A DNA stretch of 64,000 nucleotides, taken from NCBI RefSeq assembly GCF_019711515.1, contig NZ_JAIGNO010000008.1:1-64000 (forward strand), read 5' to 3'. Numbering within the stretch: position 1 is the first letter of the stretch; each line of letters opens with the position of its first letter. The notes beneath the pieces were generated by a model. That model had not been told where the DNA came from. It did no database searches and worked only from the letters and a program-made list of their open reading frames with translations. The DNA is from Qipengyuania qiaonensis (GTDB lineage Bacteria > Pseudomonadota > Alphaproteobacteria > Sphingomonadales > Sphingomonadaceae). Below, piece after piece: positions 36,367 to 64,000 of this stretch. The position numbers and the translations under genes are program-made.

Positions 36367-37301
36367 CGGAGGCCGCCGCCGACTGGCTGGTCCGGCTGGA
36401 TACCGGCTCGGCCGATCCCGTCGCGTTCGAGGCATGGCGCAGCAGCGATCCGCGTCATGCATCCGTCTTTGCTCAAATGGCCGCCACCTGGAAGCGGATC
36501 GGCGATTTGCGCTGGGCTTCGACGGACGATGACGCTGTCGGTCCTTCAGCGATGGAGGCAATCGAGCCCGAACTGCCGCGACGAGGCATAGATCGGCGCG
36601 CAGCAATTACAGGTCTTGCCGCCAGCATTGCCGCCATTGCGACCGGTGCCGGGTTCTGGATGCATATGCGGCGCGAAACCGCCACCACCGCTATTGGCGA
36701 ACGGCGCGTCGTACGATTGCCGGGCGGCGCACTTGCTAGTCTTAACACAGCCACGGAAATCGCGTGGCGCATGGGCGAAACGCTCGAAATCTGGATCGAG
36801 AGCGGTGAAGCGGCGTTCAGGCTGGCGGGCAAAGGCGCGGTGGGTGCGGTACTGTATGCCGCCACGATGCGTGCAGAGCTTGCCGGTGGCAGCTACAATG
36901 TTCGGCTGTTCGAACAAGGTCCCCGCTTTGCCGTGATGGCGGGCAGTGCTGCGGTCAGCGCCGCCGGTGGCTTCACGGATATGTTGCATGCCAACGAGGT
37001 GCTTACCGCCAGCGCATCCGGCTTTCTGACTCTGCCGCTCGCCAGCGAGGAACTCGCGCAAACCGGTGCATGGCAGCGCGGCGAGATCATCTTCGACGGA
37101 ATGGAATTGTCGGCCGCTTTGGATGAGTTCAATCGCTACTTGGCCGAGCCGATCCGGCTGGGCGATCCAGCAATCGGCGCGATCCGGTTGGGGGGGCGGT
37201 TCCGCACCGACGATCCATCCGGCTTTCTGCAAAGCCTGTATGACGGTTTCGGTATCGCCAGCCGTCGGAGCGATACAGCCATTCTGCTCTACCAAAAATA
37301 A
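36333..37301 (+). CDS. FecR-type anti-sigma/sigma regulator
   Basis: This inner-membrane protein (322 residues) passes a signal from the receptor to the sigma factor. The N-terminal cytoplasmic domain is DUF4880-like (AADWLVRLDTGSADPVAFEA, FEAWRSSDPRH). A membrane segment follows at about residues 90-108 (AAITGLAASIAAIATGAGFW). The periplasmic FecR domain starts near GERRVVRLPGGALASLNTAT, and the C-terminal part (LSAALDEFNRYLAEPIRLGD) is the region that meets the receptor STN domain. The length is normal and no defects were seen. Confidence 0.92.
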   Translation: MSQDAKAGDEIAEAAADWLVRLDTGSADPVAFEAWRSSDPRHASVFAQMAATWKRIGDLRWASTDDDAVGPSAMEAIEPELPRRGIDRRAAITGLAASIAAIATGAGFWMHMRRETATTAIGERRVVRLPGGALASLNTATEIAWRMGETLEIWIESGEAAFRLAGKGAVGAVLYAATMRAELAGGSYNVRLFEQGPRFAVMAGSAAVSAAGGFTDMLHANEVLTASASGFLTLPLASEELAQTGAWQRGEIIFDGMELSAALDEFNRYLAEPIRLGDPAIGAIRLGGRFRTDDPSGFLQSLYDGFGIASRRSDTAILLYQK

Positions 37302-37535
37302 AAACCGCCGCGATTTGGAGCTTTAGCGCTCTATTCCGCAGCTCTTCGTAAAAATTCTGCACCTTCGATGGCGGAATTTTCGCTCTCCTCCGTCTTGGGA
37401 TCAGAGTGTTCAAAGATGGGCTCGGCAATGCCGCCAACCGGTACGCACGCAGCGAAGCGTGAGCGATGCCGGACGCGGCGAGGTCGTGCCCGAAGCAAGA
37501 GCGCTCGCAAACGGATTTCACCTCATGGGGGTATT

Positions 37536-41608: not shown

Positions 41609-41661
41609 GGCAGTCAGCCTGCTGACACGATAGTGACCAAATGGCGGGCTAGAGCCGTGTT

Positions 41662-48072: not shown

Positions 48073-48157
48073 AATAAAGTGAGCATCTTGCGGAAACGCG
48101 CGGATCAGATTGTGCACTGCGACAAAGGGCCATCGGCCTGCAACCAAGGAGTGCACC

Positions 48158-48841
48158 ATGAAACGATTGATGGAAGGCGTCACGCGGTTCCGCGAGGATA
48201 TCTATCCCGAACACGAGGAGAACCTGCGAACCCTCGGACGCGAAGGACAGAATCCGAAGACGCTGATGATCAGCTGTTCGGACAGCCGCGTCGTTCCTGA
48301 ACTGATCACCCAATCGCTTCCCGGCGACCTCTTCGTGATCCGGAATGCAGGCAACATCGTGCCGCCGTGGCAGGCGATCAACGGCGGTGTGACCTCGACC
48401 ATCGAATACGCGGTGGTAGGGCTCGGGGTGACGGACATCGTGATCTGCGGGCATGCGGATTGCGGCGCGATGAAGGCGCATTTCGCACCCGCCGGCGCGC
48501 TCGACGCCATGCCGTCCGTCAAGGCATGGATCGGCCATTCCACCGCCGCGCGCGACATTGTCCACGCCTGTTGCGAGGGCGTCGGCGAACAGGACAAACT
48601 CGATCGGCTGGTGGAAGAAAACGTTATCCTTCAACTAGTGCATCTGCGCAGTCACCCGTCCGTTGCCGCCGCGCTCGCCAGCGGTAAGCTGAGGCTGCAC
48701 GGCTGGGTGTTCGATATCGAAAGCGGTTCAATCCGTGCGCTTGATGGCAGCACCGGCCGGTTCGCCGCCTTGGGCGAAGGAGGCGATCCGCCTGTCGCCG
48801 ACGCCCGCTCAGAGCCTGCCGCACAAAAAGAAGCGGCCTAA
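48158..48841 (+). CDS. Beta-class carbonic anhydrase
   Basis: The enzyme interconverts CO2 and bicarbonate. The 227-residue product has all zinc and catalytic residues: ISCSDSRVVPE (Cys40, Asp42, Arg44) and ICGHADCGAMKA (His and Cys). The ATG follows an AAGGAG ribosome site. A Pro/Ala-rich tail of about 25 residues extends beyond the domain. It is first in the order anhydrase, SulP transporter, anhydrase-like protein. Confidence 0.92.
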   Translation: MKRLMEGVTRFREDIYPEHEENLRTLGREGQNPKTLMISCSDSRVVPELITQSLPGDLFVIRNAGNIVPPWQAINGGVTSTIEYAVVGLGVTDIVICGHADCGAMKAHFAPAGALDAMPSVKAWIGHSTAARDIVHACCEGVGEQDKLDRLVEENVILQLVHLRSHPSVAAALASGKLRLHGWVFDIESGSIRALDGSTGRFAALGEGGDPPVADARSEPAAQKEAA

Positions 48842-48854
48842 GCCCCTCGCTTTT

Positions 48855-48896
48855 GAGCCGGTGCGTTGTTCGCAGGAGAACCCGCCGCGCCGGCTC
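48855..48896 (+). terminator. Hairpin between anhydrase and transporter genes
   Basis: GAGCCGG and CCGGCTC pair across a 28-base loop that can form further GC pairs. AACCTTCTTTCT follows. It could act as a partial terminator setting lower expression of the downstream genes, or as an mRNA-stabilising hairpin. Confidence 0.35.
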
Positions 48897-48982
48897 AACC
48901 TTCTTTCTACCGCAGACGATTGCTGCCGGTCGGAATGGCTCGGCACGCGCTCAAATACTCGAATGCATGCAAAGGAATCGAC

Positions 48983-50563
48983 GTGATTGAGAAAACGACA
49001 TTCTTGTCCTCGCTGGGCAAGGATATCCCCGCATCGATCGTTGTGGCGTTGGTGGCCCTGCCACTGTGTCTCGGCATCGCCCTGGCATCCGGCGCTCCGC
49101 TCTTTTCGGGTCTGATCGCCGGTATCGTCGGCGGCATCGTGGTCGGCACCCTGTCCAAGTCGCAGTTGTCGGTTAGCGGGCCTGCGGCAGGCCTGACCGT
49201 CATCGTGCTCGATGCCTTGGAGGTCCTTCCTAGCTGGGAGGTCTTCTTGCTCGCGGTGGCCCTGTCCGGCCTAATCCAGGTGGCGCTGTTCTTCACCCGG
49301 TCGGGCACGCTTTCGGAATTCGTTCCCAGTTCTGTCATCACCGGCATGCTGGCGGCTATCGGCCTAATATTGATACTCAAGCAGATCCCCCATGCCCTCG
49401 GCTACGACGGCGATTTCCAAGGCAGCCTCAGCTTCCTCCAGCCCGATGGGCTCAACACGCTTTCCGCGTTGTTCTACGCTGCGCGGGACTTCTTCCTTCC
49501 AGGGCCGATGCTGATCGCCCTGATATCGCTCTGTTTCCTGTTCTGGTGGGATGCGAAAAAACCGAAAGACGGCCCGTTGCGGCTACTTCCTGGCCCGTTG
49601 GTCGTGGTGATCTTTGGCGTTCTGGCCAACGAGGCCTTCAGGCTGTTTGCACCAGCGCTCGCCATCGAACCGAGCCACTTGGTACAGGTTCCAATGGCCG
49701 GTTCGCTGGGCGAGTTCGTGGGCCAGTTCCGCACGCCTGACTTTAGCGCCATCGGCATGGCGGATGTGTGGATCGTGGCTCTCACGCTAGCGATCGTCGC
49801 GAGCCTCGAATCCCTGCTCTGTGTCAAAGCGGTTGACGAGCTAGATCCTCGCCGCCGGACGACCGACAAGAATCATGAGTTATTGGCGCAGGGCGGAGGC
49901 AACTTCCTTTCTGGGCTGATCGGCGGTCTTCCGCTCACTTCGGTCATCGTGCGCTCCTCAGCCAATGTCGCGGCAGGGGCCGAAACGAAGAGTTCCGCTA
50001 TCCTCCACGGCTTTTGGCTTTTGCTCAGCGTGCTACTGGTCCCCGCGCTGTTGAACCTGATCCCGCTCGCGGCTCTTGCCGCGATCCTGGTCCAGGTCGG
50101 CTACAAGCTCAACACGCCTGAACTCTACCTTCGGCGTTGGCAGCAGGGATGGCACCAGTTCGTGCCCTTCATCGCGACGATCTCTGCGATCCTGTTCACG
50201 GACTTGCTGCGCGGCATCATCATCGGCCTCTCCATTGGCTTTGTCTTTGTCGTCGCGCGCAATTTTCGCACTGCGGTCAGCGTGGCGAACGACGATGCGT
50301 TCTGGTTGGTCAGCGCCAGGCGCAACCTCTATTTCATCCACAAATACGAACTGCAAAAATCGCTCGGCAAGGTGCCGGATGGCGCCAGCGTAGTGATCGA
50401 TCTCGAGCGGGCGGAGTTCGTCGATCCTGACAATGTCGACATCATCAACAGCTTCGCGCGTAACGCGAAATTTCGTGACATCACGTTGAGTATCCGGGGC
50501 GATATCGACCACCTCGACGCCGTGCGGCTCGATGCTCCACGAAAGAAGGTTGCTTACGCATGA
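48983..50563 (+). CDS. SulP-family anion transporter (bicarbonate or sulfate)
   Basis: This 526-residue inner-membrane transporter of the SulP/SLC26 family has the start GTG 48983 supported by AAAGGA. About 10-12 helices begin with DIPASIVVALVALPLCLGIA, and LIAGIVGGIVVGTLSKSQLS and SGPAAGLTVIVL are family blocks. A C-terminal STAS-like domain follows (ASVVIDLERAEFVDPDNVDI). Members that sit beside carbonic-anhydrase genes are generally thought to import bicarbonate. Its stop overlaps the next gene by 4 bp (ATGA). Confidence 0.92.
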   Translation: MIEKTTFLSSLGKDIPASIVVALVALPLCLGIALASGAPLFSGLIAGIVGGIVVGTLSKSQLSVSGPAAGLTVIVLDALEVLPSWEVFLLAVALSGLIQVALFFTRSGTLSEFVPSSVITGMLAAIGLILILKQIPHALGYDGDFQGSLSFLQPDGLNTLSALFYAARDFFLPGPMLIALISLCFLFWWDAKKPKDGPLRLLPGPLVVVIFGVLANEAFRLFAPALAIEPSHLVQVPMAGSLGEFVGQFRTPDFSAIGMADVWIVALTLAIVASLESLLCVKAVDELDPRRRTTDKNHELLAQGGGNFLSGLIGGLPLTSVIVRSSANVAAGAETKSSAILHGFWLLLSVLLVPALLNLIPLAALAAILVQVGYKLNTPELYLRRWQQGWHQFVPFIATISAILFTDLLRGIIIGLSIGFVFVVARNFRTAVSVANDDAFWLVSARRNLYFIHKYELQKSLGKVPDGASVVIDLERAEFVDPDNVDIINSFARNAKFRDITLSIRGDIDHLDAVRLDAPRKKVAYA

Positions 50564-51258
50564 AAACCATCCGCGAACTGATTCTGTCGAACAAGACGTG
50601 GTCTGCAGAGATGCGGGAGCGCAAGAAGGACTACTTCGCGCAGCAAACGTCTGGTCAATCGCCCGAGATTATGTGGATCGGCGGATCGGACAGCCGCGTG
50701 TCGCCACAGCACATAACGCAGACCCGCCCTGGTGAGTTGTTCATTCACCGAAATCTCGCCAACCTTGTTTATCAGGATGACGACAATCTTATGGCGGATC
50801 TCCAGCACGCGATCGAGGACTTCAAGGTCGCGCATATCATCCTTTGCGGCCATTACGGATGCAGCGGTCTCCAAACGGCGATGACGGATGGTGGGTCCGG
50901 TCACGTGCGTTCGTGGCTTTTGGCAGCGCGAGAGGTTTTCGCCATGCATCGCGCGGAGCTCGAGGCGATCGACGATCGGGTGCAACGGCAGGACCGAATG
51001 GCCGAACTTAACGTGCGCGAACAATTGGTCCGCCTGGCGAACACCGACACCGTCCGTTCCGCCTTCGAACGGGGGCAAGATCTGACATTGCATGGCTGGG
51101 TCTACGATTTGCGCAGCGGGCTCTTGGCTGAGCTGTTGGAAATCGACCCGACCGGGCAACTGTCAGAAATCGCTGTGCAGGATTTGGAAGAGAAAGCAAA
51201 ACGTAAGGCGGGCGGACACGCTGCCTTGTCCCCGCCAGCACTGATGGCACAGGTTTGA
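50560..51258 (+). CDS. Can-type carbonic-anhydrase homologue lacking zinc ligand Cys42
   Basis: This 232-residue protein lines up without gaps in its first 100 residues with E. coli Can as I recall it. Asp44, Arg46, His98 and Cys101 are kept (GGSDSRV and CGHYGCSG), but position 42, normally the zinc-binding Cys of the C-x-D-x-R motif, is Gly (codon GGA). Activity as a normal anhydrase is therefore doubtful. The gene is translationally coupled to the SulP transporter, so a regulatory or structural role is possible. The last ten or so residues (SPPALMAQV) seem to come from an IS remnant, which supplies the stop codon. Confidence 0.88.
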   Translation: MKTIRELILSNKTWSAEMRERKKDYFAQQTSGQSPEIMWIGGSDSRVSPQHITQTRPGELFIHRNLANLVYQDDDNLMADLQHAIEDFKVAHIILCGHYGCSGLQTAMTDGGSGHVRSWLLAAREVFAMHRAELEAIDDRVQRQDRMAELNVREQLVRLANTDTVRSAFERGQDLTLHGWVYDLRSGLLAELLEIDPTGQLSEIAVQDLEEKAKRKAGGHAALSPPALMAQV

Positions 51259-51588: not shown

Positions 51589-53478
51589 TTAGAGGCTGAC
51601 ATCGATAAAGCTGAGATGGGGCTCGTAGTCTGTCACCGCACAAGAATACCTGATGGATGCATCGTCATTTTCGTCGACTAGAGTGAAGCCCAGTCTTGTG
51701 TAGAAATCGGACACCATACCGTTCCGGTCCGTAGGGATGTAAAGCGCTTGGATTTCTTCGATTCTCGCTTGCGCGGCGGCTTCGAACAGGTTGTTCATCA
51801 CGGTCTGCTCGACACCTCGTTCTAACACACGACATGACTGCAGCCATGTGTCGATGGACCAGGCATTGTCATCTCTTCGCACGATCACCACACCGATCAT
51901 GCCGTGCTGAGCAAACTTGTCTTCTAGGCGAACCTGCCATCCTATCAGGCCCGGATCGTCCTCCATTCTCCTGACCTCATCTTCGCTGTAGCGCCGTGTG
52001 GTCAGATTGAATTGATTGGATTTGTTGATCAACTGAGCGATGCGGCTACGCCCGGCTTCGTCGAACGGCGCGATCGTCATGCGCATTTCGAGTGAAGTTA
52101 GGTAATCCTCGTAGTTCCCGATTTTGGCTCGAATTTCGGCAGCCGCTGCCCGCCCGCCATAGCTCTCTGCCCGAGAAACATCCTCCTTGTTCAGAGGAAG
52201 ATGATCGAACAGGCCCGATTGGGCGATCCGTTCGATGTAGAAAGACGGATCGTCGCCGATTTCCACCGTCGAAACGAGAGGCAACTCCTGCCTTACCCGT
52301 TCGCGTTCGGCGGCATTGTCGTCGACGAATACGAAGGACTCGAGACCTAGACTGAGCGTTTCGGCTATCGTTTTGATATTCGTAGCCTTGTCGCTCCAGT
52401 TCGCTTGAAACACGGCGACATGGTCTTCCTTAAGAACCATCTCGGTATGCTTGCGAAATGGCTCGCGGGCGATTTCATCGGTGTTCTTCGAACATACGGC
52501 CAGCACTACACCGCGTTCGCGCAAGCTCAGGACAAAATTCTGAAATGCGACAAACGCTTCTCCCTCAGGCGAATTCTGGCCCAGCCTGATCCCAGCGAGA
52601 CCGTCGTCGCCGATAACGCCGCCCCACAACGTGTTGTCGAGATCAAGAACAAGGCCGCGCGCTGCCTTCCCTTTCATCGCTGCCAACAAAGCGGCAATAT
52701 TGTCGGCGGCCAAGGGACACACATCAACACTGAAAGGTATCTTGGCCGCGTGGTAGCGGACGGGATCGAGCCAGGTTTCCAGTCCAACCCGGCTAGCCAG
52801 CGCCGCTTGATCCCATATTAGCCAGCGACCCTCCCTGGCGCCTTCTGCGAGCAAAAGGTTGATGCGATGCCGGAAGCGCGCGGATGTGCCGGGTGTTGCC
52901 AGTTCCGACGATGAGACCTGTAGAGCCCCAGGAAGAGTACCAAATATTGCTTGGCAGCCCGATTTCTCTTGAGCGGCGGCGGCTAAGGCAGCGACAAGGT
53001 TCGCTGCATCCGCAAGCGCTTCGTCTTCGGCAGCTTGATCGAGCATCGGTCGCTTGCTTGCAAACGCGCTTTCATCGAGCACTACCAGCAGCGCATCCAG
53101 AGAACGACCAAAACAGTTGGCAGGCGAGTAGCCAAAACTTGCGACGCTGTCGTAGGGTGCCTCTACCGAAGATATTTTGAGACCCCGGGCCAAGCCAGAG
53201 GCGGCCAGTGGATCAGGAAGATAGCTCAGCGTACGATTGCCAAGAAGTCCGATGGTTACCGGCGTAAATGAGGAACCCGTTAGACCCGCCTTATCCAGTT
53301 TTTTGGCAAGGCGCTCGATCCGCAATTGTTCGCGCATACCCAATTGCTGGTTGGCCAAAGTCTTGAGCGCGACATAATCCGGCTCGCGACCGTCTGCGAA
53401 TACACCTTCGATATCGGTGAGCCGTTCGGCCCAGTCCTGCGCCAAAGGAGGTCGCCAGGGAAAATTGCCGACCGTCAT
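51589..53478 (-). CDS. FkbH-like HAD-IIIC protein
   Basis: This 629-residue protein starts MTVGNFPWRPPL. An N-terminal region of about 265 residues (SGNH-like in this family) is followed by the HAD-IIIC domain with LVLDLDNTLWGGVIGDDG (Asp279, Asp281), VLAVCSKNTDEIA and FVFVDDNAAER. A C-terminal GNAT-like region holds INKSNQFNLTTRRYSE and MVSDFYTRLGF. Family proteins such as FkbH take 1,3-bisphosphoglycerate, remove phosphate and load the glyceryl group on an acyl carrier protein. The start overlaps the ACP stop by 4 bp (ATGA), so the two are direct partners. Confidence 0.92.
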   Translation of the reverse strand: MTVGNFPWRPPLAQDWAERLTDIEGVFADGREPDYVALKTLANQQLGMREQLRIERLAKKLDKAGLTGSSFTPVTIGLLGNRTLSYLPDPLAASGLARGLKISSVEAPYDSVASFGYSPANCFGRSLDALLVVLDESAFASKRPMLDQAAEDEALADAANLVAALAAAAQEKSGCQAIFGTLPGALQVSSSELATPGTSARFRHRINLLLAEGAREGRWLIWDQAALASRVGLETWLDPVRYHAAKIPFSVDVCPLAADNIAALLAAMKGKAARGLVLDLDNTLWGGVIGDDGLAGIRLGQNSPEGEAFVAFQNFVLSLRERGVVLAVCSKNTDEIAREPFRKHTEMVLKEDHVAVFQANWSDKATNIKTIAETLSLGLESFVFVDDNAAERERVRQELPLVSTVEIGDDPSFYIERIAQSGLFDHLPLNKEDVSRAESYGGRAAAAEIRAKIGNYEDYLTSLEMRMTIAPFDEAGRSRIAQLINKSNQFNLTTRRYSEDEVRRMEDDPGLIGWQVRLEDKFAQHGMIGVVIVRRDDNAWSIDTWLQSCRVLERGVEQTVMNNLFEAAAQARIEEIQALYIPTDRNGMVSDFYTRLGFTLVDENDDASIRYSCAVTDYEPHLSFIDVSL

Positions 53479-53720
53479 CCGCTCTGTTTCGCAGCCGCTC
53501 TGACGAGATCTCCGAGGTTCTTGAAACTCTGCATTTCGGACGTGCCGAAATGAACGCCCAGTTCCATCTCGATCATGACCATCAACCGGACATGCGAAAG
53601 GCTGTCCCACTGAGCCACATCGTTTGCGGTTGTTTCCATGGTGACGGGACCGTCATATTCATCGAACAGGTCCCGGATGATTTCGGTGACCTTGTCGAGA
53701 ATGGCTTGGTGTTCTGACAT
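53475..53720 (-). CDS. Acyl carrier protein
   Basis: This carrier protein has 81 residues. The phosphopantetheine attachment Ser40 is in QWDSLSHVRL. Acidic helices follow (MIEMELGVHF). The start at ATG 53720 (MSEHQAILDK) excludes an upstream extension of 39 codons that lies in the end of the previous gene. It is probably loaded by the overlapping FkbH-like protein. A distinct small ACP next to MBOAT and SGNH genes recalls DltC. Confidence 0.92.
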   Translation of the reverse strand: MSEHQAILDKVTEIIRDLFDEYDGPVTMETTANDVAQWDSLSHVRLMVMIEMELGVHFGTSEMQSFKNLGDLVRAAAKQSG

Positions 53721-53745
53721 GTTTTCAATCCTTCTAGTCGGCTGA

Positions 53746-54966
53746 CTATGAGGTGCTCGAATTCGATCGCGTGTTTTCGGATGGTTCCGTGGCGGTCGCG
53801 CGACCCAGATAGCTGTTTGTGAGGCGATAATTTTCAACTGCGGAGCGAATGGCTCTTTCGTGGGTCGGAAAGTTGTCGCGGGTCAAGCGACCGGTTCCGG
53901 TCGTTGTAGCAGTAACAAACCTGCGCAGGATTGCAGGGTCGTACACATGTCCGACCTCACGAAAATTGGCGAGGTCGCCGGCTACGGCGGGATCGTCGTC
54001 AAAAGCGAAGATGTTCACATGTGGCAGGTCGCCGACGGCATTCACAAGGCAGCGCCGCGCGATCATCTGTTCGTCGAGCAGGGTTGGGCTGATATCGTTT
54101 CGACGGACATAGTAAAAGGCATAGGAGGCGATGGGGATCATTATGTCCACCTTGACTCCTCTGTCGGAGAGCGCCCTCACATCCGGGACGAGTTGATCGT
54201 TTATGGCATGAAAACTGGCGCAATCCCTGCCGCTCGAAGCCCCGATCTCCGTTCGATGGCGCTCGACCAATCGCGCGATCTTGGTCATTTCCGACGGATG
54301 CTGAAAGCCCTCATACATCTTATCGACATAGGTTTTGTAGGTCGCATCGTCCGGATTGCTGTACGATAGATTGCCGCCCAGTATATCGAATGCTTTTCGG
54401 ATGGTGGGGAAGTTCACCATACGAAGGTCGTTGGTGATATCGCTATCATAGAGAAACGCCGGAAAGCTGCGATTGGTGACTTCGGGGTCTTGAATGTATG
54501 TCCAATCGAATGTCAGGATCACATGCTGGATCGTCGGATTTGCAACCAGCCGATCGAGAACCAGATCCCGGTCGCGAGGTCGGGGACCACCATAGCTGAG
54601 ATTTGCAACATGGGCGTCTGGGCCGAGAACACCCTTCATGTATTCTGGCGTGTACATCGCGGTTACCGAACTTCCCACGAGGAACGTGTTGTAGGCCGGA
54701 TCCTTGGCCGCAACATCGATCCAGTCGATAACCAAGTCTCTGGGTGTGTCACCTCGTTCTATGCGCGGTTCGGCGCCCCAGCTGTAGATGTTGTGGGGAT
54801 CGACCGCGATTACGATGGCTGCAAGCGACAGATAAATGACTGTGATAAGAGACGCCGCCAAGATCATCGGGCGTGTCGACCGCCAGCGAATCGCGGATAG
54901 AGAGGCCTTGACGGGGGCTCGCGCCCCAGGTGGCGCAAAATTCGCTGACAGGATCGGTTTCGTCAT
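53746..54966 (-). CDS. Membrane-anchored SGNH-like protein (DltD/AlgX-like role)
   Basis: This 406-residue protein has one N-terminal membrane helix (about residues 34-55, MILAASLITVIYLSLAAIVI) and a large extracytoplasmic part. NTFLVGSSVTAMY holds the candidate catalytic Ser of an SGNH fold (Ser99 or Ser100), and a late FREVGHVYDPAIL block fits the Asp/His end of such folds. NLSYGGPRP is a likely oxyanion segment. Its gene starts 4 bp after the MBOAT stop and lies 25 bp before the ACP gene. In MBOAT systems (AlgI with AlgJ/AlgX, DltB with DltD) such proteins move the acyl group on to the polymer. Assignment rests on motifs and context. Confidence 0.8.
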   Translation of the reverse strand: MTKPILSANFAPPGARAPVKASLSAIRWRSTRPMILAASLITVIYLSLAAIVIAVDPHNIYSWGAEPRIERGDTPRDLVIDWIDVAAKDPAYNTFLVGSSVTAMYTPEYMKGVLGPDAHVANLSYGGPRPRDRDLVLDRLVANPTIQHVILTFDWTYIQDPEVTNRSFPAFLYDSDITNDLRMVNFPTIRKAFDILGGNLSYSNPDDATYKTYVDKMYEGFQHPSEMTKIARLVERHRTEIGASSGRDCASFHAINDQLVPDVRALSDRGVKVDIMIPIASYAFYYVRRNDISPTLLDEQMIARRCLVNAVGDLPHVNIFAFDDDPAVAGDLANFREVGHVYDPAILRRFVTATTTGTGRLTRDNFPTHERAIRSAVENYRLTNSYLGRATATEPSENTRSNSSTS

Positions 54967-54970
54967 GCCG

Positions 54971-56539
54971 TCAGAATCCCTGATAGAGGAAAGGCGGCTG
55001 GCGGGACACGTAATAAAGCGAAGCGATGACCAGTATGGAAATATAGCTCGCTTGTACCCAGCCCGGACGCCAGAGGCCACGTAGGAACGCCGGCCCGTAA
55101 CTCTTGTTTTCGTAGGTCATGATGGCAGGCCGGTATCGCCGCATGATCTCGACGCTGTTCGGGCAGAGGTAGATGATCGAAAATGCCACCGTCAGCATCA
55201 CTACGGGCTCGCGCATGTTAAAAAGCGAACGAGCGTCGATCGCGGTGCCGAACATCTGCGAAAACAGATGAAAACCGCCGCTCACGCTTTCCGAACGGAA
55301 CATGGCCAGGCTGAGCAGAAGCGGCAAGAAAAACACCGCTCGCTCGATAAACCCGAGGATGATCGGGGACGCCGTCTTCTTGACTGCCTTGTACCATTTT
55401 GTCGCCCGGACTTCCGTCTCAAGAGCGTACCAGAAACCGTGCATGAGTCCGAAGACGCAGAAAGTCCACAAGGCTCCGTGCCAAAGGCCGATGATCTGAA
55501 AATTGATCAACATCGGCAGCCATAAGCTGAGGAGATGCGCCGGAACCGGGGCAAGTCGATTGAACATGCTGTAGCGCGTTCCGGCGACCGACAGGGGAGT
55601 ATAGAGGAACCGGGCAATTACTCGCGTGAGGGTCATGTGCCAGCGACGATAGTAGTCGATGATTCCGTTCGCTTTGAACGGCGAGAAGAAGTTTATGGGG
55701 TAACGCAATCCGAACATGCGCGCGAGACCCAGTGCCATGTCCGAATAGCCGGAAAAGTCGAAATAGAGCTGGCCCATGTAAGCCAGCGCACCAATCCACG
55801 CCTGGAGCGGGTGAATTTCGGCGCCCACGTGAGCGGCGCCGAAAACGATATCGACTGTAGGCGCCAGATTGTCGGCAATAACGACCTTCTTGAACATGCC
55901 GATCGATATGAAGCTCAGCCCGACAGCGAGATCGATAGGGTTCAGGCGAAGGAACCGTTTGGACTGTATCTGAGGGTTGAACTCGCTGAGATAGGTAATC
56001 GGTCCGATTATGAGCTGCGGGAAGAAGCTTACGAATGCGCCATATCTGCCGAAAGCCGAGCATATGGATTTCGTCGAGCCCAACCCGCCGAGGAACTGGG
56101 CGACGTTTTTCTCGCGTGCATAGGCGTCTGCCAGAAAGGCGGCGCCTTGGAACGTATAGAAGGAAATGCCCGCGGGAATTGCGATCCCGGCGATATCAAC
56201 CATAATACCGGCGCTTGGACCGAAAAGAAGAGTTATAATCTTGTACTTGAAGTAACACAGGGATATTATATTATAAGCTTGGCCAGCTAGATAAATCTTC
56301 CTTCTGTTTTTATTGTCATCTCCGATAATAGTGATTGCTGCCGCGACGGAAAAATTAACGACAAGTGCTAATATTAACAAAATGGCAGATGCTATTCCAT
56401 AGGGAATATAAAATACTACAGAGGAAATGAAAAGTACGGCCAGAGCATAATTCTTACCGAAGAAATATGCAATCATATAGAATGCAATCAAGGAGATCGG
56501 TAGAAATGCAAACAGAAATAGAGGGTCGGTAAATATCAA
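54971..56539 (-). CDS. MBOAT family O-acyltransferase (AlgI/DltB-like)
   Basis: This 522-residue integral membrane protein moves acyl groups across the inner membrane. Family blocks are GISFYTFQGAAFLADAY, SFFPQLIIGPI, LYFDFSGYSDMALGLARMFG, YYRRWHMTLTRVIARFLYTP and the catalytic His354 in IIGLWHGALWTF, with another His at GLMHGFWYALE. It is the first gene of a four-gene operon. The N-terminal third is clearly more AT-rich than the surroundings, a sign of transfer that is common in surface-polysaccharide loci. Confidence 0.93.
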   Translation of the reverse strand: MIFTDPLFLFAFLPISLIAFYMIAYFFGKNYALAVLFISSVVFYIPYGIASAILLILALVVNFSVAAAITIIGDDNKNRRKIYLAGQAYNIISLCYFKYKIITLLFGPSAGIMVDIAGIAIPAGISFYTFQGAAFLADAYAREKNVAQFLGGLGSTKSICSAFGRYGAFVSFFPQLIIGPITYLSEFNPQIQSKRFLRLNPIDLAVGLSFISIGMFKKVVIADNLAPTVDIVFGAAHVGAEIHPLQAWIGALAYMGQLYFDFSGYSDMALGLARMFGLRYPINFFSPFKANGIIDYYRRWHMTLTRVIARFLYTPLSVAGTRYSMFNRLAPVPAHLLSLWLPMLINFQIIGLWHGALWTFCVFGLMHGFWYALETEVRATKWYKAVKKTASPIILGFIERAVFFLPLLLSLAMFRSESVSGGFHLFSQMFGTAIDARSLFNMREPVVMLTVAFSIIYLCPNSVEIMRRYRPAIMTYENKSYGPAFLRGLWRPGWVQASYISILVIASLYYVSRQPPFLYQGF

Positions 56540-56583
56540 ATCTTCATCCCTTCAACATTGATATTTACACAATCTGTTTTTGC

Positions 56584-56796
56584 CTATGCCATTGCCCGGC
56601 GCGCGCCGAACCTTTCAAGATCTGGTGCAACGAGTTGCCAAATTTGCTCCGTTAGAAAAAGAGGGCATTGGTATATCCTTGCGCCCGCAATGAGATGCCG
56701 GAAATCAAAGTGGTTACTGCGAAGGGGTGCTTGAACGATCGCAGCCATTCGTTCACTCAAGTTGTCGCGCCGGTGGATTTCCGCTCCGCAGGGCAT
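56584..56796 (-). pseudogene. Possible C-terminal fragment of a sulfotransferase-like gene
   Basis: This 70-codon minus-strand ORF reads HRRDNLSERMAAIVQAPLRS, then SNHFDFRHLIAGARIYQCPL, and ends QIWQLVAPDLERFGARRAMA. The pattern suggests the tail of a sulfotransferase-type protein, but this is weak. The 56540-56896 gap holds nothing else recognisable apart from the likely promoters of the divergent MBOAT and sulfotransferase genes. Confidence 0.3.
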
Positions 56797-56896
56797 GTCA
56801 AAGACTTCGCCAAGTGTGAGACCGCCTCTAGCTGTGCGATTTGATGGCGTGTTTCGCTACCCGTTCCAGCGCATCAACCAGAGGTGCCAGCAGCCA

Positions 56897-57736
56897 ATGC
56901 AGCTAAGTGACATCGATTTTGTTATCATTGGTGCCGCAAAGTCGGCAACGACTTGGCTCCAAACACAATTGCAGTCGGATCCGGCGGTTTATATGCCGGA
57001 CCCGGAGCTCCACTATTTCTCAAGGGAGTATGATCGGGGGCGGGATTGGTATTTGTCGCAGTTCAGCGAGGAGGGGGCCGGTAGGACTGTTGGCGAGAAA
57101 TCCAATTCCTACCTCTATGTGCCCGAAGCGGCTGCCCGTCTCCATCGCGATCTGCCCCAAGTGAAGCTGATCGCGCAGTTGCGCAATCCTGTCGAGCGGG
57201 CATATTCAAGCTACTGTATGCTGTTCAGGCGCGGCGAAGTGAGCGCCGATATCGAGTCATATCTCAATCCTTCACTAAGCGAAAATATGCAGATCCTCGG
57301 TTCGGGGAGCTTCGCGTCTCACCTGCAATCCTTTATCGATCTCTTCGGCCGACAACGACTTCTTATCCTGTTTTTCGAAGGGGTTTCGGAAGCTCCCGAG
57401 GCGCAGATATCGCGGGTCCGTGCCCATTTGGGCTTGCCGCCGCGTGCTCTGGCACGAGAGGGGCAAGGAAAAGTAAAAGACAAGGCTGCGCCGCTCGTGC
57501 CCGCCGGATTGCGCAAGCGACTTGCATGGATGAAGCCGGTGGTTCGCCCCCTGCGTGGGACCGCGCCGTTCGAAGCTGCCCGGGGGCTGATCGCGCGCAA
57601 GACGGAGTACCCCCAGCTGACAGAGGACCTCAGAAAGCGGCTAGATGAATATTATGGCCCTTCTGTCGAGGCACTCGAGCAGATAAGCGGCCAGTCTCTT
57701 CGTCACTGGTATGGGCGGGCGGATAGCGCCAATTAG
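56897..57736 (+). CDS. Sulfotransferase domain protein
   Basis: This PAPS-dependent sulfotransferase has 279 residues from ATG 56897 (MQLSDIDFVIIGAAKSATTW). The 5'-phosphosulfate loop is IIGAAKSATTWLQTQL and the 3'-phosphate site is LIAQLRNPVERAYSSYCMLF. The frame is open to 56762, but homology-like sequence begins at the chosen start. The fold is that of heparan N-sulfotransferase-like enzymes that modify glycans or lipids; here the likely acceptor is the surface polysaccharide. Confidence 0.9.
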   Translation: MQLSDIDFVIIGAAKSATTWLQTQLQSDPAVYMPDPELHYFSREYDRGRDWYLSQFSEEGAGRTVGEKSNSYLYVPEAAARLHRDLPQVKLIAQLRNPVERAYSSYCMLFRRGEVSADIESYLNPSLSENMQILGSGSFASHLQSFIDLFGRQRLLILFFEGVSEAPEAQISRVRAHLGLPPRALAREGQGKVKDKAAPLVPAGLRKRLAWMKPVVRPLRGTAPFEAARGLIARKTEYPQLTEDLRKRLDEYYGPSVEALEQISGQSLRHWYGRADSAN

Positions 57737-58179
57737 GGTTGGTTCACCGGCCTGGCGGTGTGCAGGCTGTCCAGTGCCGATGCCCGTTTCCGCCACCCAA
57801 GCCGCCCGCTAGGCCAGAAGGCGCGGTTGCGATGGTCAATGTGGGTAAGCGCTCAAAGCGGGTTTCGTGCAGACCCAATTGGTCGGCAGGAAAGTCAAAT
57901 ATGGGCTAACCGATTATTCCAACTGCGCTACGGCACACCGTCTGGTAGTTCGCACGACGAAGGCCTCGACGGTAGTGAAGAGGTCACCAAGCCAATGGGT
58001 CTCGGCGGCGCCGCCGCAGCAATTTTCGACTGGCATCGAGGCCTGTTTTCAAGTTTTGCCAGCGGATTGAACGGTGCTCGGATACCATTAGGGGGTATCG
58101 AATATCACTACGGGACCAAGGTTGCTGGCAGGCACTCAAACGCCGAGGCGAATAATCATCAAGAGGGCTATTACGTAAC
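57737..58179. other. Stretch without recognised gene
   Basis: This 443 bp lies between the sulfotransferase and pyruvyl-transferase genes. A 141-codon ORF on the plus strand (57758-58183) has no motif and poor coding character. The last 100 bases grow AT-rich towards the next gene. Confidence 0.35.
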
Positions 58180-59394
58180 ATGAAAAATTTCGTAATAACT
58201 GGCATACAGATGAGAAACAAAGGCTCTCAGGCGATGTTTCTATCGTTATATTACGGCCTGAAATCTCTATTTGAGAACTGCAATGTAGTCGGGTTCGCCA
58301 ATAAATACGACCAACCGGAGCAATATTCGTTCAATTTGCTCCCCTATGACGACTACACGCGACTCGTGTTCAAATACCGGTTGAACAGCGTGCCACTGTT
58401 GGCTCCGCTAGTGACAACCCTAGCCTCAGTCTCGAGGAAGACCGACAAGTGGAATGGCCAGATCGCCAAGATGGAGAAAGCCTTACAAGAGGCAGATGCG
58501 ATTCTGGATGCAAGCGGATACACGCTCGGCTCCGGGTGGGGCAAAGGAGGCGGCAGGCTGCTGCTGCAAACGATAAAGATCGCCAAACGCTACAACAAGC
58601 CGATAATATTGATGCCGCAAAGCTTTGGGCCATTCGACTGGGGCGAGGAGGACGACGCGGAATTCCTCAAAGAGGTGAAAGAGGAATTGAGCTATTGCAC
58701 GAAGATCTACGCTCGCGAGATCGAGGGTTATAAGTGCCTGAAGTCGCTGGGTCTGGATAATGTCGAATTATCTGCGGACATGGTCATTCGGGAGAAAGCC
58801 TTTCCCAAAGCCAGCGACATTCATGCATCATATGAAGAAGAAGTAGATTATCCTTCTCCAGGGTCCATCGGCTTCATCATCAACGAGAATGTATTCAGGA
58901 TCGGAGACCCCGATGCGGTGCTCGACCTGTATGCACGCATACTGAATAAGCTGGTGGACGACGGTGAGAAGGTTTGCATTCTGAATACATCCACCGCCGA
59001 TATACACCTTGTTGAAAGCGTTCTCGACAAAGTCAAAAACAGAGACAAGGTGAGAATAATATCCGGAGAATATTCAAGCCCGGAGCTGATCGATATCATC
59101 GGTCGATTCAAGTATGTCGTCGCCTCACGTTACCACTCCGTCGTATTCGCTTACAGGAGCGGTGTTCCTGCAATCATACTCGGTTGGGCCAGCAAATATA
59201 TCGATCTGGCGGCACACTTTCAGCAGCAGGATAATGTGTTCGATATCAGGGAGCCAGGTGTCGATCGGATCATCGAACGGATCGACCAGATGGGCGCGAA
59301 GTACGCAGAAGAATCACAGAACATAAAAGACTGTCTGGAAAATATGCAGACCACATCTGTGGTGCAGCAAGCTGTGAGCGCATTGGAGGCGTGA
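58180..59394 (+). CDS. Polysaccharide pyruvyl transferase family protein
   Basis: This 404-residue enzyme (PF04230) moves pyruvate from phosphoenolpyruvate to a sugar, giving a charged ketal. MKNFVITGIQMRNKGSQAMF is the family's nucleotide-type start (G-x(4)-N-x-G). Other blocks are IILMPQSFGPF, IYAREIEGYKCLKSLGL and YVVASRYHSVVFAYRSGVPA with the conserved Arg/His, and ILGWASKY. The gene has lower GC content and Lys-rich codon use compared with its neighbours, which suggests transfer. Confidence 0.9.
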   Translation: MKNFVITGIQMRNKGSQAMFLSLYYGLKSLFENCNVVGFANKYDQPEQYSFNLLPYDDYTRLVFKYRLNSVPLLAPLVTTLASVSRKTDKWNGQIAKMEKALQEADAILDASGYTLGSGWGKGGGRLLLQTIKIAKRYNKPIILMPQSFGPFDWGEEDDAEFLKEVKEELSYCTKIYAREIEGYKCLKSLGLDNVELSADMVIREKAFPKASDIHASYEEEVDYPSPGSIGFIINENVFRIGDPDAVLDLYARILNKLVDDGEKVCILNTSTADIHLVESVLDKVKNRDKVRIISGEYSSPELIDIIGRFKYVVASRYHSVVFAYRSGVPAIILGWASKYIDLAAHFQQQDNVFDIREPGVDRIIERIDQMGAKYAEESQNIKDCLENMQTTSVVQQAVSALEA

Positions 59395-59534
59395 CATTTC
59401 TTGGCGACAGTCAACGGCATGCGAAGTCGTTTGCAGGACCTCGAGTCTCATATGACTGATATCGCAACGATCCTATGCGCTAACGATGCGCTGCCAAACC
59501 CCAGGAAAGATATACCTATGGAGGCCGTCTGGCG

Positions 59535-60668
59535 ATGAAACCGCTCGTGAACAAAATCCTACCCGAGGACCAGCGCGATCAACTTCGCGACGCCCGACTC
59601 TTCTTTAATGCATCGGGGGTGAGACGATTGGCCAGATCGGCGCAGACCGCCGGTTTGAGGTTCGCGTCGCAGGTCAAGCCACTGGCGTCCGCGTACTATT
59701 CTTTGCTGTCGCGCCAGTTTCAGCGAGAGGAACGCGCGGTCCTGCTCGGGCTCGCGAAGTACCACGCGGAGCTTCAAGAGGACGATGCCAACATCTTCCT
59801 GATGCGCAGAAACGTCCATCGGCTGGAAAAAGGGCTGTTGATGCGTCCCCGACGCCCGGTGTTTGCGAAGGAATATATTCTCGAAACGGTCAACGTATAT
59901 CGCAAGATTGTTGCGGAGCCTGTGCGCTCCGGCGAGCGTGTCGCGGAGTCGTTGATCTGGGCGTACGACGTACTCGGCGAATATTTCAGAGCTGTAGCCG
60001 CTGACCCGGTACTCGATCACGCGCGCGAGATTTTCGGGCAATGTCCGGTCCCTGACGGCAGTGGCGAGGGAGCGGGGAACAGGGTTCCTTACAAGCGCAA
60101 CCTTGATGAACACCCGGTCTCCTTCGGGCAGCTGGAGCGGCTGGCCGTCAAGCGGCGATCGGTAAGGTGGTTCGAGCAGAAGCCCGTGCCCCGCGAATTG
60201 CTGGACAAAGCCTTCACGGTGGCCGGACTGTCGCCGAGCGCCTGTAACCGGCAACCTTACCGGTTCCTCGTTTTCGACGACCCGGAGATGGTCGCAACGG
60301 TGGCGGGGGTGCCGGGAGGGACCGCTGGCTTCAAGCATAACATTCCGGTGATGGTGGCAGTCTTGGGCACCTTGGATGCGTTCTACAGCGAACGTGATCG
60401 GCACGTACCTTACATCGACGGTTCCCTTGCCGCGATGTCATTTGCCTACGCGCTGGAAACCCTCGGTCTAAGCTCCTGCATATTCAACTGGCCGGATATC
60501 GAGAAACGCGAGAAGATGGCGGAGAGGGTCCTGGGCTTGAAGGGATACGAGCGTCCCGTGTTCTTCATGGGAGTAGGCTACCCAGACCCCGACGCTATGG
60601 TCGCGTACTCCCAGAAACGCCCGCTCGATGTCATGCGCGTGTACAACCCCCCAATCAACCCGTTCTGA
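59535..60668 (+). CDS. Nitroreductase-family protein with N-terminal extension
   Basis: This 377-residue protein has a GGAGG ribosome site 10 bases before the ATG. The C-terminal half (from about residue 200) is a nitroreductase fold that binds FMN: AVKRRSVRWFEQKPVPRELL, AGLSPSACNRQPYRFLVFDD and YIDGSLAAMSFAYALETLGL. The first 190 residues are helical and not recognised. Nitroreductase genes of this kind occur in polysaccharide clusters next to pyruvyl transferases; the reaction is not known. Confidence 0.87.
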   Translation: MKPLVNKILPEDQRDQLRDARLFFNASGVRRLARSAQTAGLRFASQVKPLASAYYSLLSRQFQREERAVLLGLAKYHAELQEDDANIFLMRRNVHRLEKGLLMRPRRPVFAKEYILETVNVYRKIVAEPVRSGERVAESLIWAYDVLGEYFRAVAADPVLDHAREIFGQCPVPDGSGEGAGNRVPYKRNLDEHPVSFGQLERLAVKRRSVRWFEQKPVPRELLDKAFTVAGLSPSACNRQPYRFLVFDDPEMVATVAGVPGGTAGFKHNIPVMVAVLGTLDAFYSERDRHVPYIDGSLAAMSFAYALETLGLSSCIFNWPDIEKREKMAERVLGLKGYERPVFFMGVGYPDPDAMVAYSQKRPLDVMRVYNPPINPF

Positions 60669-60782: not shown

Positions 60783-62726
60783 ATGTGCGGAATTGCGGGC
60801 TTCGTAGATTTTTCTGGAAAATTGCAGGTCGACCCGGCGCGCTTGCTGGACGAGATGCGCGATACGCTGCTCCATCGTGGACCCGATGCGGGCGGATCGG
60901 CAGTGGAGGCAGAGGGGCGGGTTGGGCTCGGCCATCGCCGCCTCTCGATCATCGACCTGTCCGAAACCGGGGCGCAGCCGATGGAGTCTGCTTCCGGACG
61001 CTATGCCATCGTCTTCAATGGCGAGATCTACAATTTCCAGGCTATCCGTACCGAGCTGATGGCGTTGGGGGCGACCTTTCGCGGAACGTCCGATACCGAA
61101 GTTCTGCTTGAGGCGATCGAGCGCTTTGGCTTGGTCGCGGCGCTCCAGCGGGCCAATGGTATGTTCGCGCTGGCGCTCTTTGACCGGAAGAAAAAGGAAG
61201 TTGCATTCGCGCGTGATCGGCTGGGCAAGAAGCCGCTTTATATCGGCTTAGCCGGGGGCTCGCTGGCGTTCGGATCGGAACTGAAGGCGCTGCGCCGCCA
61301 TCCGCTGTTCACGAAGCTGGAAATCGACCGACAGGCCGCTGCACATTTCGCTCGGCTTGGCTATATCCCCGCACCGCTCTCGATCTACAAGAACGTCGGC
61401 AAGCTGCCGCCGGCGAGCTACATCGTCCTCCCGCTCGAGGGGAAAGAACCGGGCCTGGAGGTCATCCGGGCGGAAACCCGCGCATACTGGAGCATGCATT
61501 CCGCCGCCCAAGACGGGATCGAGAGGCGGTTTCAGGATGAGGCCGAGGCGCTTGATGCGCTTGAGGAGCGATTGGGAGTTGCGGTCGAGCAGCGGCTGGT
61601 ATCCGACGTGCCGGTTGGCGCCTTCCTCTCGGGCGGCGTCGATTCAAGCCTTGTCTGTGCGCTGATGCAGGAACGACTTAGCGGCAATGCGAAGACCTAT
61701 ACGGTTGGGTTCGCCGAAAGTGAGTTCGACGAGACAGCGGATGCGGCTGAGCTTGCCGCGCATATTGGATCGCAGCATACGGAGCTTCCGCTCAACCCGA
61801 GCGCAGCGCTCGATTCCGTCGGCGAGATGCAGCAGATATTCGATGAGCCCTTCGCGGACCCTTCGCAAATCCCCTCACTGCTCATTTCTCGGCTCATCCG
61901 ATCCGAAGTAACCGTTGCCATCTCGGGCGACGGGGGCGACGAGTTTTTCGGCGGCTACAAGCGCTATCCGCGCATGCTGGCGATGGAACGGCTGGCGCAG
62001 CGGGTGCCCGATGCACTGCGGCATGCGGCGAAAGCCACGCCGTTTTGGTTGCTCGACGCCGGCGCCAAGGCAGGCCGTTTACTCAGGCCTGGAGGGCGCG
62101 CCGAGGAGCTAAGCGGTGATCGGGCGGAAAAGATCGTTGAAATCGTTGCTCAACCTGACTTCCGTCACCGCTACGAACACTTCAATTCGCAGTGGATCCC
62201 CCCGCACGGATCGCCCCCTAGCCCTTTCACCGCGGTAGAGCTTCCCGAGGGTCTCGGTCAACTTGAGCAGATGATGTTCCTCGATGCGATCTGTTACCTG
62301 CCAGACGATGTTCTGGTGAAGGTCGATCGGACATCGATGGCCACCAGTCTGGAAGTTCGTTCTCCACTGCTCGACTACGAATTGATCTCCACTGCCTGGC
62401 GTATGCCCGACAGTCTGCGAATGCCAGATGGTACGACAGGGAAGATTGCCCTGCGTAAACTACTCGCGCGGCGTGTGCCCGAGCACATGATCGACCGTCC
62501 AAAACGCGGCTTTGGAGTGCCGCTGAACGAATGGCTGCGGGGCCCGCTACGCGAACTTGCGGAGGATCACCTGAACCCCGGAAAGATGGAAGCGCTCGGC
62601 TACTTCGATAGCCAGGCGGTCAGCAAGCGTTGGGTCGAACACCTTTCGGGCCGCCGCAACTGGGGCTTCCATCTGTGGAGCTGTATCTGCTTTAGCATGT
62701 GGCACCGTCAATGGATGACCGCTTGA
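60783..62726 (+). CDS. asnB: Asparagine synthase (glutamine-hydrolysing)
   Basis: This 647-residue amidotransferase has an N-terminal glutaminase with nucleophile Cys2 (MCGIAGFVDFSG), LLHRGPDAGG and VFNGEIYNF. The ATP-pyrophosphatase part has GAFLSGGVDSSLVCALM and AISGDGGDEFFGGY. Paralogues in surface-polysaccharide loci are thought to amidate uronic acids or acyl groups rather than make free asparagine. Its end lies 8 bp from the end of the convergent flippase gene. Confidence 0.9.
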   Translation: MCGIAGFVDFSGKLQVDPARLLDEMRDTLLHRGPDAGGSAVEAEGRVGLGHRRLSIIDLSETGAQPMESASGRYAIVFNGEIYNFQAIRTELMALGATFRGTSDTEVLLEAIERFGLVAALQRANGMFALALFDRKKKEVAFARDRLGKKPLYIGLAGGSLAFGSELKALRRHPLFTKLEIDRQAAAHFARLGYIPAPLSIYKNVGKLPPASYIVLPLEGKEPGLEVIRAETRAYWSMHSAAQDGIERRFQDEAEALDALEERLGVAVEQRLVSDVPVGAFLSGGVDSSLVCALMQERLSGNAKTYTVGFAESEFDETADAAELAAHIGSQHTELPLNPSAALDSVGEMQQIFDEPFADPSQIPSLLISRLIRSEVTVAISGDGGDEFFGGYKRYPRMLAMERLAQRVPDALRHAAKATPFWLLDAGAKAGRLLRPGGRAEELSGDRAEKIVEIVAQPDFRHRYEHFNSQWIPPHGSPPSPFTAVELPEGLGQLEQMMFLDAICYLPDDVLVKVDRTSMATSLEVRSPLLDYELISTAWRMPDSLRMPDGTTGKIALRKLLARRVPEHMIDRPKRGFGVPLNEWLRGPLRELAEDHLNPGKMEALGYFDSQAVSKRWVEHLSGRRNWGFHLWSCICFSMWHRQWMTA

Positions 62727-62734: not shown

Positions 62735-64000
62735 TCAGGTCAGTTCCACGGCGTCCTCGGAAGAAGCTTGCCGATTTAAGTTCCTCCACATCCAGACGTC
62801 GAGCAGAACGGCGGTAAGGATGCCGAAGCCGATATGCGCAAAGCTTGCTCCGATCGCGCCGTATATGGGTATCGCGTAAAACGCGATTCCAAGGAAAAGT
62901 ACGGTCGAACATGTTGCCGTCATCAGCACATATTGCGGACAGTTCATGGCCAACAAAGCGGAGCGCGCCGGGGCGGAATGCATGATGAGAAAGACCGCCA
63001 CCAGATGTGCCATGAGGATCGTATAAGCAGGTGCAAATTCGGCTCCGAATGCAAGCAACACCAGCGGTTTGCCGATCACTGCGGCGACGACCAGGATACT
63101 TCCCATGATCAGCGCGAGAAGGCCTTGTATGCTGACAACGGTCTTGCGGAATTGCCGCTTTATCTTGCCCGCCCACATTCTCGCAAGATCGGGGTATACG
63201 ACCATCTGGATCATCTCGCCGCAGGCCATGGCCACCTTCGCCATTCGCTTGGCGATATGGTAGAAACCCGCCGCCTCGGAGCTGTCGGTCAGCGCGCCGA
63301 CGATCAGTGTGTCCGCCTCATGCGTGATCGTTCGCAGGGCGCTAGAGGCATTCGTGGTGAAGGCGAAGCCAAGAAAGCCCGGGAAGTCCTGGATCAGATT
63401 GCCCACGCGCGCCCGCAGAGGCGAAGGGGTGCCATCGCGTGAGAGCTGGCGAAAGGCGACAAAGTTATACAGCAGCGCGTCGACCACTTGGGAGATGGTC
63501 CAGACCCAGACGAAGGTCATTAACCCGCTGCCGGCCCAGTAGAATATAGCTGCCAGGAGCAGACGCAGAAACCCGGCAATGAACACTATATATGCCATTG
63601 TCCGGAACATGCCCGCCATCCGCATCACGGCCGACGACATCCCGCGCAGGTTGAGCGCGATGGCGACGGCGTAGATTGCTACGAGCGGGAGCATCTCTCG
63701 AGGGAAATCGAAGTAGGACGTCAGAACAAAGGCGACGATCACCGAAAGCAACGCGGCAACCAGCGCGCCCGCTATGTCGAGAATTAAGCCGAACAGGTAG
63801 AGTCTCGATAGTCGCTCGGGATCGCTCGTTCCTTCCTCTGTCGCAGCAAAGCGCACGAGTGGCTGCCACGATTCGAAGCGCACGATCCGTTCGCAAACGC
63901 GCCCGACCGCCAACGTCATTGCGAGGATGCCAAACGCCTCGGGGCCGAGCGCACGAGTGGCGAACGCAATGCTGCCGATCATCACGAAGGCATTGCCGAC
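62735..64000 (-). CDS. Oligosaccharide flippase (Wzx-type), 5' end outside window
   Basis: This multi-spanning membrane protein of the polysaccharide biosynthesis/MOP superfamily moves lipid-linked repeat units to the outer face of the inner membrane. Helices include FATRALGPEAFGILAMTLAV (family start), VALLSVIVAFVLTSYF-like and GKPLVLLAFGAEFAPAYTIL. The frame stays open to the window edge, so the true start (one more helix) lies beyond 64000. The C-terminal end is complete. Confidence 0.85.
   Translation of the reverse strand, partial: VGNAFVMIGSIAFATRALGPEAFGILAMTLAVGRVCERIVRFESWQPLVRFAATEEGTSDPERLSRLYLFGLILDIAGALVAALLSVIVAFVLTSYFDFPREMLPLVAIYAVAIALNLRGMSSAVMRMAGMFRTMAYIVFIAGFLRLLLAAIFYWAGSGLMTFVWVWTISQVVDALLYNFVAFRQLSRDGTPSPLRARVGNLIQDFPGFLGFAFTTNASSALRTITHEADTLIVGALTDSSEAAGFYHIAKRMAKVAMACGEMIQMVVYPDLARMWAGKIKRQFRKTVVSIQGLLALIMGSILVVAAVIGKPLVLLAFGAEFAPAYTILMAHLVAVFLIMHSAPARSALLAMNCPQYVLMTATCSTVLFLGIAFYAIPIYGAIGASFAHIGFGILTAVLLDVWMWRNLNRQASSEDAVELT

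Follow-up and report, generated by a model that had tools for sequence, protein, structure and literature searches.

A Dlt/PatA hybrid operon with an FkbH-type loader, predicted to acylate an exported glycan in Qipengyuania qiaonensis

We have analysed a stretch of 64,000 nucleotides from Qipengyuania qiaonensis (positions 1 to 64,000 of contig NZ_JAIGNO010000008.1; hereafter the window) that contains a four-gene operon encoding an MBOAT O-acyltransferase, an anchored SGNH protein, an acyl carrier protein (ACP) and an FkbH-type protein. This module is a new form of MBOAT-SGNH acylation, a conclusion carried by the genes themselves, their folds and conserved residues, and their linkage with its controls; a glyceryl cargo, a direction of transfer and an acceptor are predictions that build on it. 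We consider that the module probably constitutes a trans-envelope acylation pathway fed from glycolysis, in which the acyl group passes from FkbH to the ACP, then to a tyrosine of the MBOAT protein, on to the SGNH protein and finally to an exported glycan. Because the MBOAT protein bears the shuttle tyrosine itself, as PatA does, the system is a Dlt/PatA hybrid, with a Dlt-like carrier protein, a PatA-like fused shuttle and FkbH instead of DltA. The initial annotation of this DNA had proposed a Dlt-like relay in which FkbH replaces DltA; conservation supports the relay, and the fused tyrosine corrects its mechanism to that of the hybrid.

The four open reading frames (ORFs) lie on the minus strand as a tight operon in the order MBOAT (54971..56539, 522 residues, TTG start), SGNH (53746..54966, 406 residues), ACP (53475..53720, 81 residues) and FkbH (51589..53478), with gaps of 4 bp and 25 bp and a 4-bp overlap; order, coordinates and spacings are all as originally annotated. 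Family scans of the window proteins gave matches to MBOAT (PF03062, 1.2e-15), PP-binding (PF00550, 3.4e-4) and FkbH (TIGR01686, 289 bits against a curated cut-off of 146.65), and no Pfam or NCBIfam match for the SGNH protein. Scans for promoters and terminators gave no clear excess over shuffles. The source genome (3.39 Mb in 33 contigs) has one FkbH match and one MBOAT match.

The genes of the module are found together well beyond this genome. A scan of 298 genomes of the family found an FkbH match in 38, the window's own genome included, and regions were fetched around 37 of the matches; linkage was scored on the same strand, within 1.5 kb for the ACP and 4.5 kb for the MBOAT gene. The 20 closer FkbHs have a linked ACP in 19 cases, a linked MBOAT in 17 and both in 16, whereas by the same distances and strand the 17 distant FkbHs have neither (ACP 0/17, MBOAT 0/17; Fisher 6e-7). 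As a reverse control, an MBOAT profile search matched 79 of the 298 genomes, and 20 loci were fetched. Nineteen are without FkbH, three of them (L153, L155 and L158) being short and cut by contig ends; the twentieth, L170, holds the rest of an FkbH gene that is cut in L046 of the same genome. None of the 19 FkbH-free MBOAT loci has an ACP, against 16 of the 17 FkbH-linked loci in the family. The annotated ACPs of loci L174 and L175 escaped the ACP model used for these counts. A broader model finds both, which are in its training set, and still gives 0/17 for the distant FkbH loci, 0/19 for the FkbH-free MBOAT loci and 19/20 for the close ones.

The same association is seen in a set of named loci. 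These are the 80 best out of at least 587, hence no census, and 77 remain once the duplicates L108, L115 and L118 are dropped. The ACP is present in 65, the MBOAT gene in 42 and both in 39, and the set extends over seven phyla (Pseudomonadota, Acidobacteriota, Nitrospinota, Vulcanimicrobiota, Planctomycetota, Bacillota and Verrucomicrobiota). Fifty-six loci from the window, family and named sets contain all three genes, arranged along the strand as MBOAT-ACP-FkbH in 9, ACP-FkbH-MBOAT in 29, FkbH-ACP-MBOAT in 8 and MBOAT-FkbH-ACP in 10. The persistence of the association across four gene orders and at least two MBOAT lineages speaks for a functional linkage. The proposal was originally said to fall if the four genes were not conserved together in related genomes, and the counts for close, distant and named loci came out in its favour.

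Phylogenies place this linkage in context. MBOAT linkage switches 15 times along the FkbH tree, compared with 35 times under shuffled labels, and is thus clustered yet not fixed (L033, L034, L045, L046, L108, L115, L117, L118, L126, L136, L144 and L147 were left out of this tree, and additionally L062, L065, L131 and L132 from the version with tetronate rows). The MBOAT tree (which leaves out L033, L034, L044, L103, L108, L115, L133 and L158) has FkbH-linked MBOATs at two or more positions. The labels on the MBOAT tree come from whole loci with no distance or strand limit, and L083, L099, L110, L117, L131 and L144 are labelled FkbH-linked though they have no same-strand MBOAT within 4.5 kb. 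A single origin of the FkbH-linked MBOATs was considered and weakly rejected (p-AU 0.026 against one clade, on a quick tree with long branches).

The MBOAT protein resembles DltB in sequence (phmmer 9.8e-21 against 6BUG) and in fold, DltB being the best Foldseek match (5.9e-10) of a predicted model with a pLDDT of 85.8; its match to TIGR04091 falls below the cut-off of that model. His354 of the WHG motif is invariant in both of our alignments (15/15 and 22/22 rows). The protein ends in FLYQGF (codons 54974..54991, minus strand), of which Phe517, Tyr519 and Phe522 are invariant in the 15 rows of the first alignment, and Tyr519 and Phe522 in the 22 of the second. The same C-terminal motif, FxYxxF, has been shown to carry acyl-tyrosine in PatA, and in Dlt systems it is kept on DltX (PMC12148441). 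An ending of the form [FVIL]xYxxF is found in 56 of 60 FkbH-linked MBOATs (window 1/1, family 17/17, named 38/42). FxYxxF is likewise the ending of 18 FkbH-free MBOATs out of 19, the remaining one (L158) being cut by the contig end; the tail is therefore general to MBOAT-SGNH systems, and the ACP is what marks the module.

The four FkbH-linked MBOATs without the tail (L072, L121, L140 and L145) are 403-404 residues long, and each has a microprotein with one transmembrane segment near the module. In L072 this protein (10852-10968, 38 residues) starts just 3' of FkbH and ends in IAYQQF; in L121 (6364-6468, 34 residues) it overlaps the MBOAT stop and ends in FVYTGF; in L140 (11725-11826, 33 residues) it overlaps the start of the MBOAT ORF as called and ends in LVYERF; and in L145, where it ends at position 10799 with IAYQQF, it has 40 or 65 residues depending on the choice of start. 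Over 140 loci (4.82 million strand-bases, with duplicates counted) a scan returned 77 such ORF ends, of which 72 are MBOAT C-termini, four are these microproteins and one is another ORF (L167). The scan found no separate DltX-like microprotein in the window, where the motif is fused to the MBOAT protein. Because the microproteins beside tail-less MBOATs look as a DltX would, they support the shuttle step.

Neither Pfam nor sequence comparison with the PDB gave a useful name for the SGNH protein, and its fold was used instead. The predicted model suggests an N-terminally anchored SGNH-fold acyltransferase, with DltD as first Foldseek match and Ser100, in a GSS motif, as the likely nucleophile. 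Ser100 and His340 are invariant in an alignment of seven rows, and by a looser listing 55 of 62 rows, which include two duplicates, contain an anchored ORF. With the DltB fold and the carrier protein, this recovers the counterparts of DltB, DltD and DltC that had been annotated.

FkbH was rightly recognised at the outset as a HAD-IIIC/GNAT-like protein with a DLDNT motif (52630-52644, minus strand), its TIGR01686 score lying far above the cut-off, and we predict it to be a glyceryl-ACP synthase. Enzymes of this kind can carry the glyceryl group on a cysteine. Asp279, Asp281, Thr283, Ser330, Lys331, Asn332 and Cys549 (codon 51832-51834) are invariant in all 89 close rows; Cys549 was rejected as a diagnostic of the module, being present in 17/17 distant FkbHs too. 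The sole solved relative found for the protein is BF1531 (3SLR, 2.6e-54). The ACP has its phosphopantetheine site at Ser40 of a WDSL motif (codon 53601-53603), the DS of which is carried by its relatives, and its nearest solved chain is 2LML (6.2e-15). Three loci (L174, L175 and L178) contain KASIII-FkbH-ACP operons, a gene set resembling the glycerate-utilisation operon of PMC7489565. Of 43 alignment columns that split MBOAT-linked from distant FkbHs, 28 have the module residue in at least two-thirds of these tetronate rows. This likeness strengthens the glyceryl cargo of the initial annotation and would support, though it does not prove, a glyceryl-ACP.

On this basis the pathway can be drawn in some detail. 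Judging by its family, FkbH would take the acyl group of 1,3-bisphosphoglycerate, strip the phosphate and load D-glyceryl, which is what this metabolite would yield, onto the phosphopantetheine arm of the ACP. By analogy with PatA and DltB/DltX, the MBOAT protein, with His354, would shift the glyceryl group from the ACP to its own C-terminal Tyr519 on the periplasmic side. The anchored SGNH protein would then accept it on Ser100 and esterify a hydroxyl of the exported glycan, which is most likely the polysaccharide of the neighbouring gene cluster.

This cluster begins with a divergent sulfotransferase gene (56762..57736, plus strand; PF13469, 5.9e-14), followed by genes for a polysaccharide pyruvyl transferase (58180..59394, plus strand; PF04230, 1.7e-35), an amidotransferase that resembles asparagine synthase and is closest to the XrtA/PEP-CTERM exopolysaccharide type (60783..62726, plus strand; TIGR03108, 532 bits and so below the cut-off of 816.9) and a polysaccharide flippase-like protein (62735..63985, minus strand; PF13440, 6.5e-17). 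It also includes a nitroreductase-like gene, and further along the same contig lie genes for glycosyltransferases, a formyltransferase and PseB/PseC-like enzymes. Because sulfotransferase, pyruvyltransferase, flippase and glycosyltransferase genes adjoin or follow the module, an exported polysaccharide is its likeliest acceptor. That the acceptor is instead lipopolysaccharide (LPS), another envelope lipid or a protein glycan strikes us as doubtful, though it is the best-placed of the alternatives: the closest solved ACP, 2LML, presumably comes from an LPS region of Geobacter metallireducens, and against this stand both the neighbourhood just described and that of the Sinorhizobium meliloti module, which lies near capsule export genes annotated as RkpR, KpsF and an ABC transporter.

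Slightly less likely is a relay that works as proposed with a cargo other than plain glyceryl, such as lactyl, phosphoglyceryl or a glyceryl group modified later. The FkbH domains of suomilide biosynthesis have been proposed to supply glycerate that is then methylated and sulfated (PMC10143770), and methyltransferase genes lie near two MBOAT-free FkbHs (L089 and L123). The four-gene operon of the window, however, includes neither a methyltransferase nor an oxidoreductase, and the module-like FkbHs of tetronate clusters have been proposed to make plain glyceryl-ACP (PMC7489565).

Several observations weigh against the glyceryl relay to an exported polysaccharide. Its cargo is predicted from the FkbH family and the likeness to tetronate-operon FkbHs, and its acceptor from neighbouring genes; the FkbHs of L174, L175 and L178 moreover group together outside the 89-row module clade, at a fork that the tree does not resolve. 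Cys329 of FkbH varies even among MBOAT-linked rows (present in 42 of 57) and was dropped as a marker of the module. In the MBOAT model the five C-terminal residues, which make up most of the FLYQGF motif, have a pLDDT below 50. For the SGNH protein the predicted model reaches middling confidence and matches DltD with a low TM-score, the acid of the DxxH motif is Glu337 in the window protein as against Asp in aligned relatives, and the strict SGNH signature is present in just 35 of 60 MBOAT-linked loci. FkbH and MBOAT were not found in any of the four other genomes of the genus, which suggests that the module is a dispensable acquisition. Lastly, an MBOAT gene on the same strand within 4.5 kb is missing from 35 of the 77 named loci, and two close family FkbHs (L047 and L051) lie on long contigs that lack one, so FkbH-ACP pairs probably serve other transferases too. 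Such pairs with no MBOAT in reach (L109, L111, L113, L114, L119, L124 and others) come in many cases from Acetobacteraceae and Rhodospirillales, and another transferase probably uses the same acyl-ACP there. A division of labour in which MBOAT and SGNH O-acetylate a polysaccharide from acetyl-CoA in the manner of PatA, with FkbH and ACP feeding a cytoplasmic glyceryl transferase, would fit the 26 of these 35 named loci that have an ACP and the description of non-Dlt MBOAT-SGNH pairs as acyl-CoA users (PMC12148441), and is nonetheless the least probable reading, given that the ACP follows FkbH-linked and not FkbH-free MBOATs and that the linkage holds across four gene orders and more than one MBOAT lineage.

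The operon stands at the border of a stretch of low G+C (52-56%, the window being otherwise mostly at 57-62%); positions 54001-60000 have 52-55%, against 56-62% elsewhere in the window. Together with the absence of FkbH and MBOAT from the four congeners, this composition suggests that the polysaccharide island was acquired.

The closest relatives of the module are in Sinorhizobium glycinis (67% identity, among the best 80 of at least 587 loci) and on pSymB of S. meliloti, which has the operon at 67% identity as well and where FkbH is found at 60-80% identity in 39 plasmid records; matches to the SGNH protein occur in 40 records, all from Sinorhizobium. In S. meliloti strain ml66 the order is MBOAT, SGNH, ACP and HAD, with the ABC transporter, RkpR export and KpsF genes following within 10 kb, and the S. 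meliloti MBOAT also ends in FLYQGF. The S. meliloti SGNH protein (L172, 13412-14641) is annotated as a TonB-dependent receptor; at 49% identity to the window SGNH protein over 363 residues, this annotation looks wrong. The FkbH match is split in two pieces in 6 of the 39 pSymB records, including that of strain 1021, and is in one piece in Rm2011. An insertion element is annotated at the split in one of the six, and in strain 1021 (L171, 21206-23268) the gene spans two frames, through either a real mutation or a sequencing error. Among the open-licence papers listed by a search, none concerned the S. meliloti module.

Comparison with known systems brings out what is distinctive about the module. 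It shares with Dlt a carrier protein, an MBOAT and an anchored SGNH protein in one operon, with DltB and DltD as first Foldseek matches, as well as the FxYxxF shuttle motif (PMC12148441). It differs in having FkbH as the predicted loader and no DltA among its four genes, the genes to which the search for DltA was confined, in its fused motif in place of a separate DltX, and in a predicted glyceryl rather than D-alanyl cargo, which would be activated as an acyl phosphate instead of by ATP and a ligase. A plain dlt operon was rejected, the operon having no ligase and the DltB model falling below its cut-off. PatA/PatB and AlgI-type acetylation systems likewise have extra C-terminal MBOAT helices ending in FxYxxF and an SGNH partner, but are described in PMC12148441 as acyl-CoA users without a carrier protein, unlike the module, whose operon holds an ACP and its loader. 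The glyceryl-ACP cassettes of tetronate and methoxymalonate biosynthesis also place FkbH beside a stand-alone ACP, and L174, L175 and L178 share the 28 module residues noted above; there, however, the proposed recipients of glyceryl-ACP are a FabH-like enzyme or dehydrogenases (PMC7489565), whereas in the module the recipient would be the MBOAT protein, and the FkbHs of the tetronate clusters branch outside the module clade. The match to BF1531 of Bacteroides fragilis, which is listed as an uncharacterized protein, covers the N-terminal part and HAD domain of the FkbH protein and stops short of its C-terminal GNAT-like region. Among the matches listed from the open-licence literature none described the module, patents and most subscription papers lying outside the search; the one paper in which FkbH and MBOAT turned up together concerns aeruginosins (PMC10143770).

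Two other groups of genes in the window may be recorded here. A SulP-family transporter lies between two carbonic anhydrases of the Pro_CA type at 48110-51258, possibly as a bicarbonate uptake set, and at 35776-44475 an extracytoplasmic function (ECF) sigma factor and a FecR-like regulator precede a CehA/McbA metallohydrolase that has a TonB-dependent receptor on either side.

The module bears on how envelope acylation is understood more generally. A 2025 mechanism paper describes MBOAT/SGNH pathways other than Dlt as having no carrier protein (PMC12148441); the module, found in seven phyla, is a counter-example to that rule. Somewhat less confidently than for the single pathway, we lean towards a widespread type of envelope acylation that has so far escaped recognition. 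In it the acyl phosphate of 1,3-bisphosphoglycerate, in place of acyl-CoA or of ATP plus a ligase, would power O-glycerylation of surface glycans through ACP, MBOAT tyrosine and SGNH serine; different lineages of MBOAT would have taken up FkbH-ACP cassettes, and the shuttle tyrosine would be either fused or on a DltX-like microprotein. The presence of the operon in S. meliloti opens this proposal to testing in a model organism. Gellan offers a test and is no part of our claim, since 1,3-bisphosphoglycerate would give D-glyceryl and gellan has the L form. Gellan is reported to bear L-glyceryl (PMC9737242), and according to a 2015 review a single acetyltransferase had been verified for its acylation (PMC4443731). 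The module provides a concrete genetic candidate for the origin of glycerate esters on bacterial polysaccharides.

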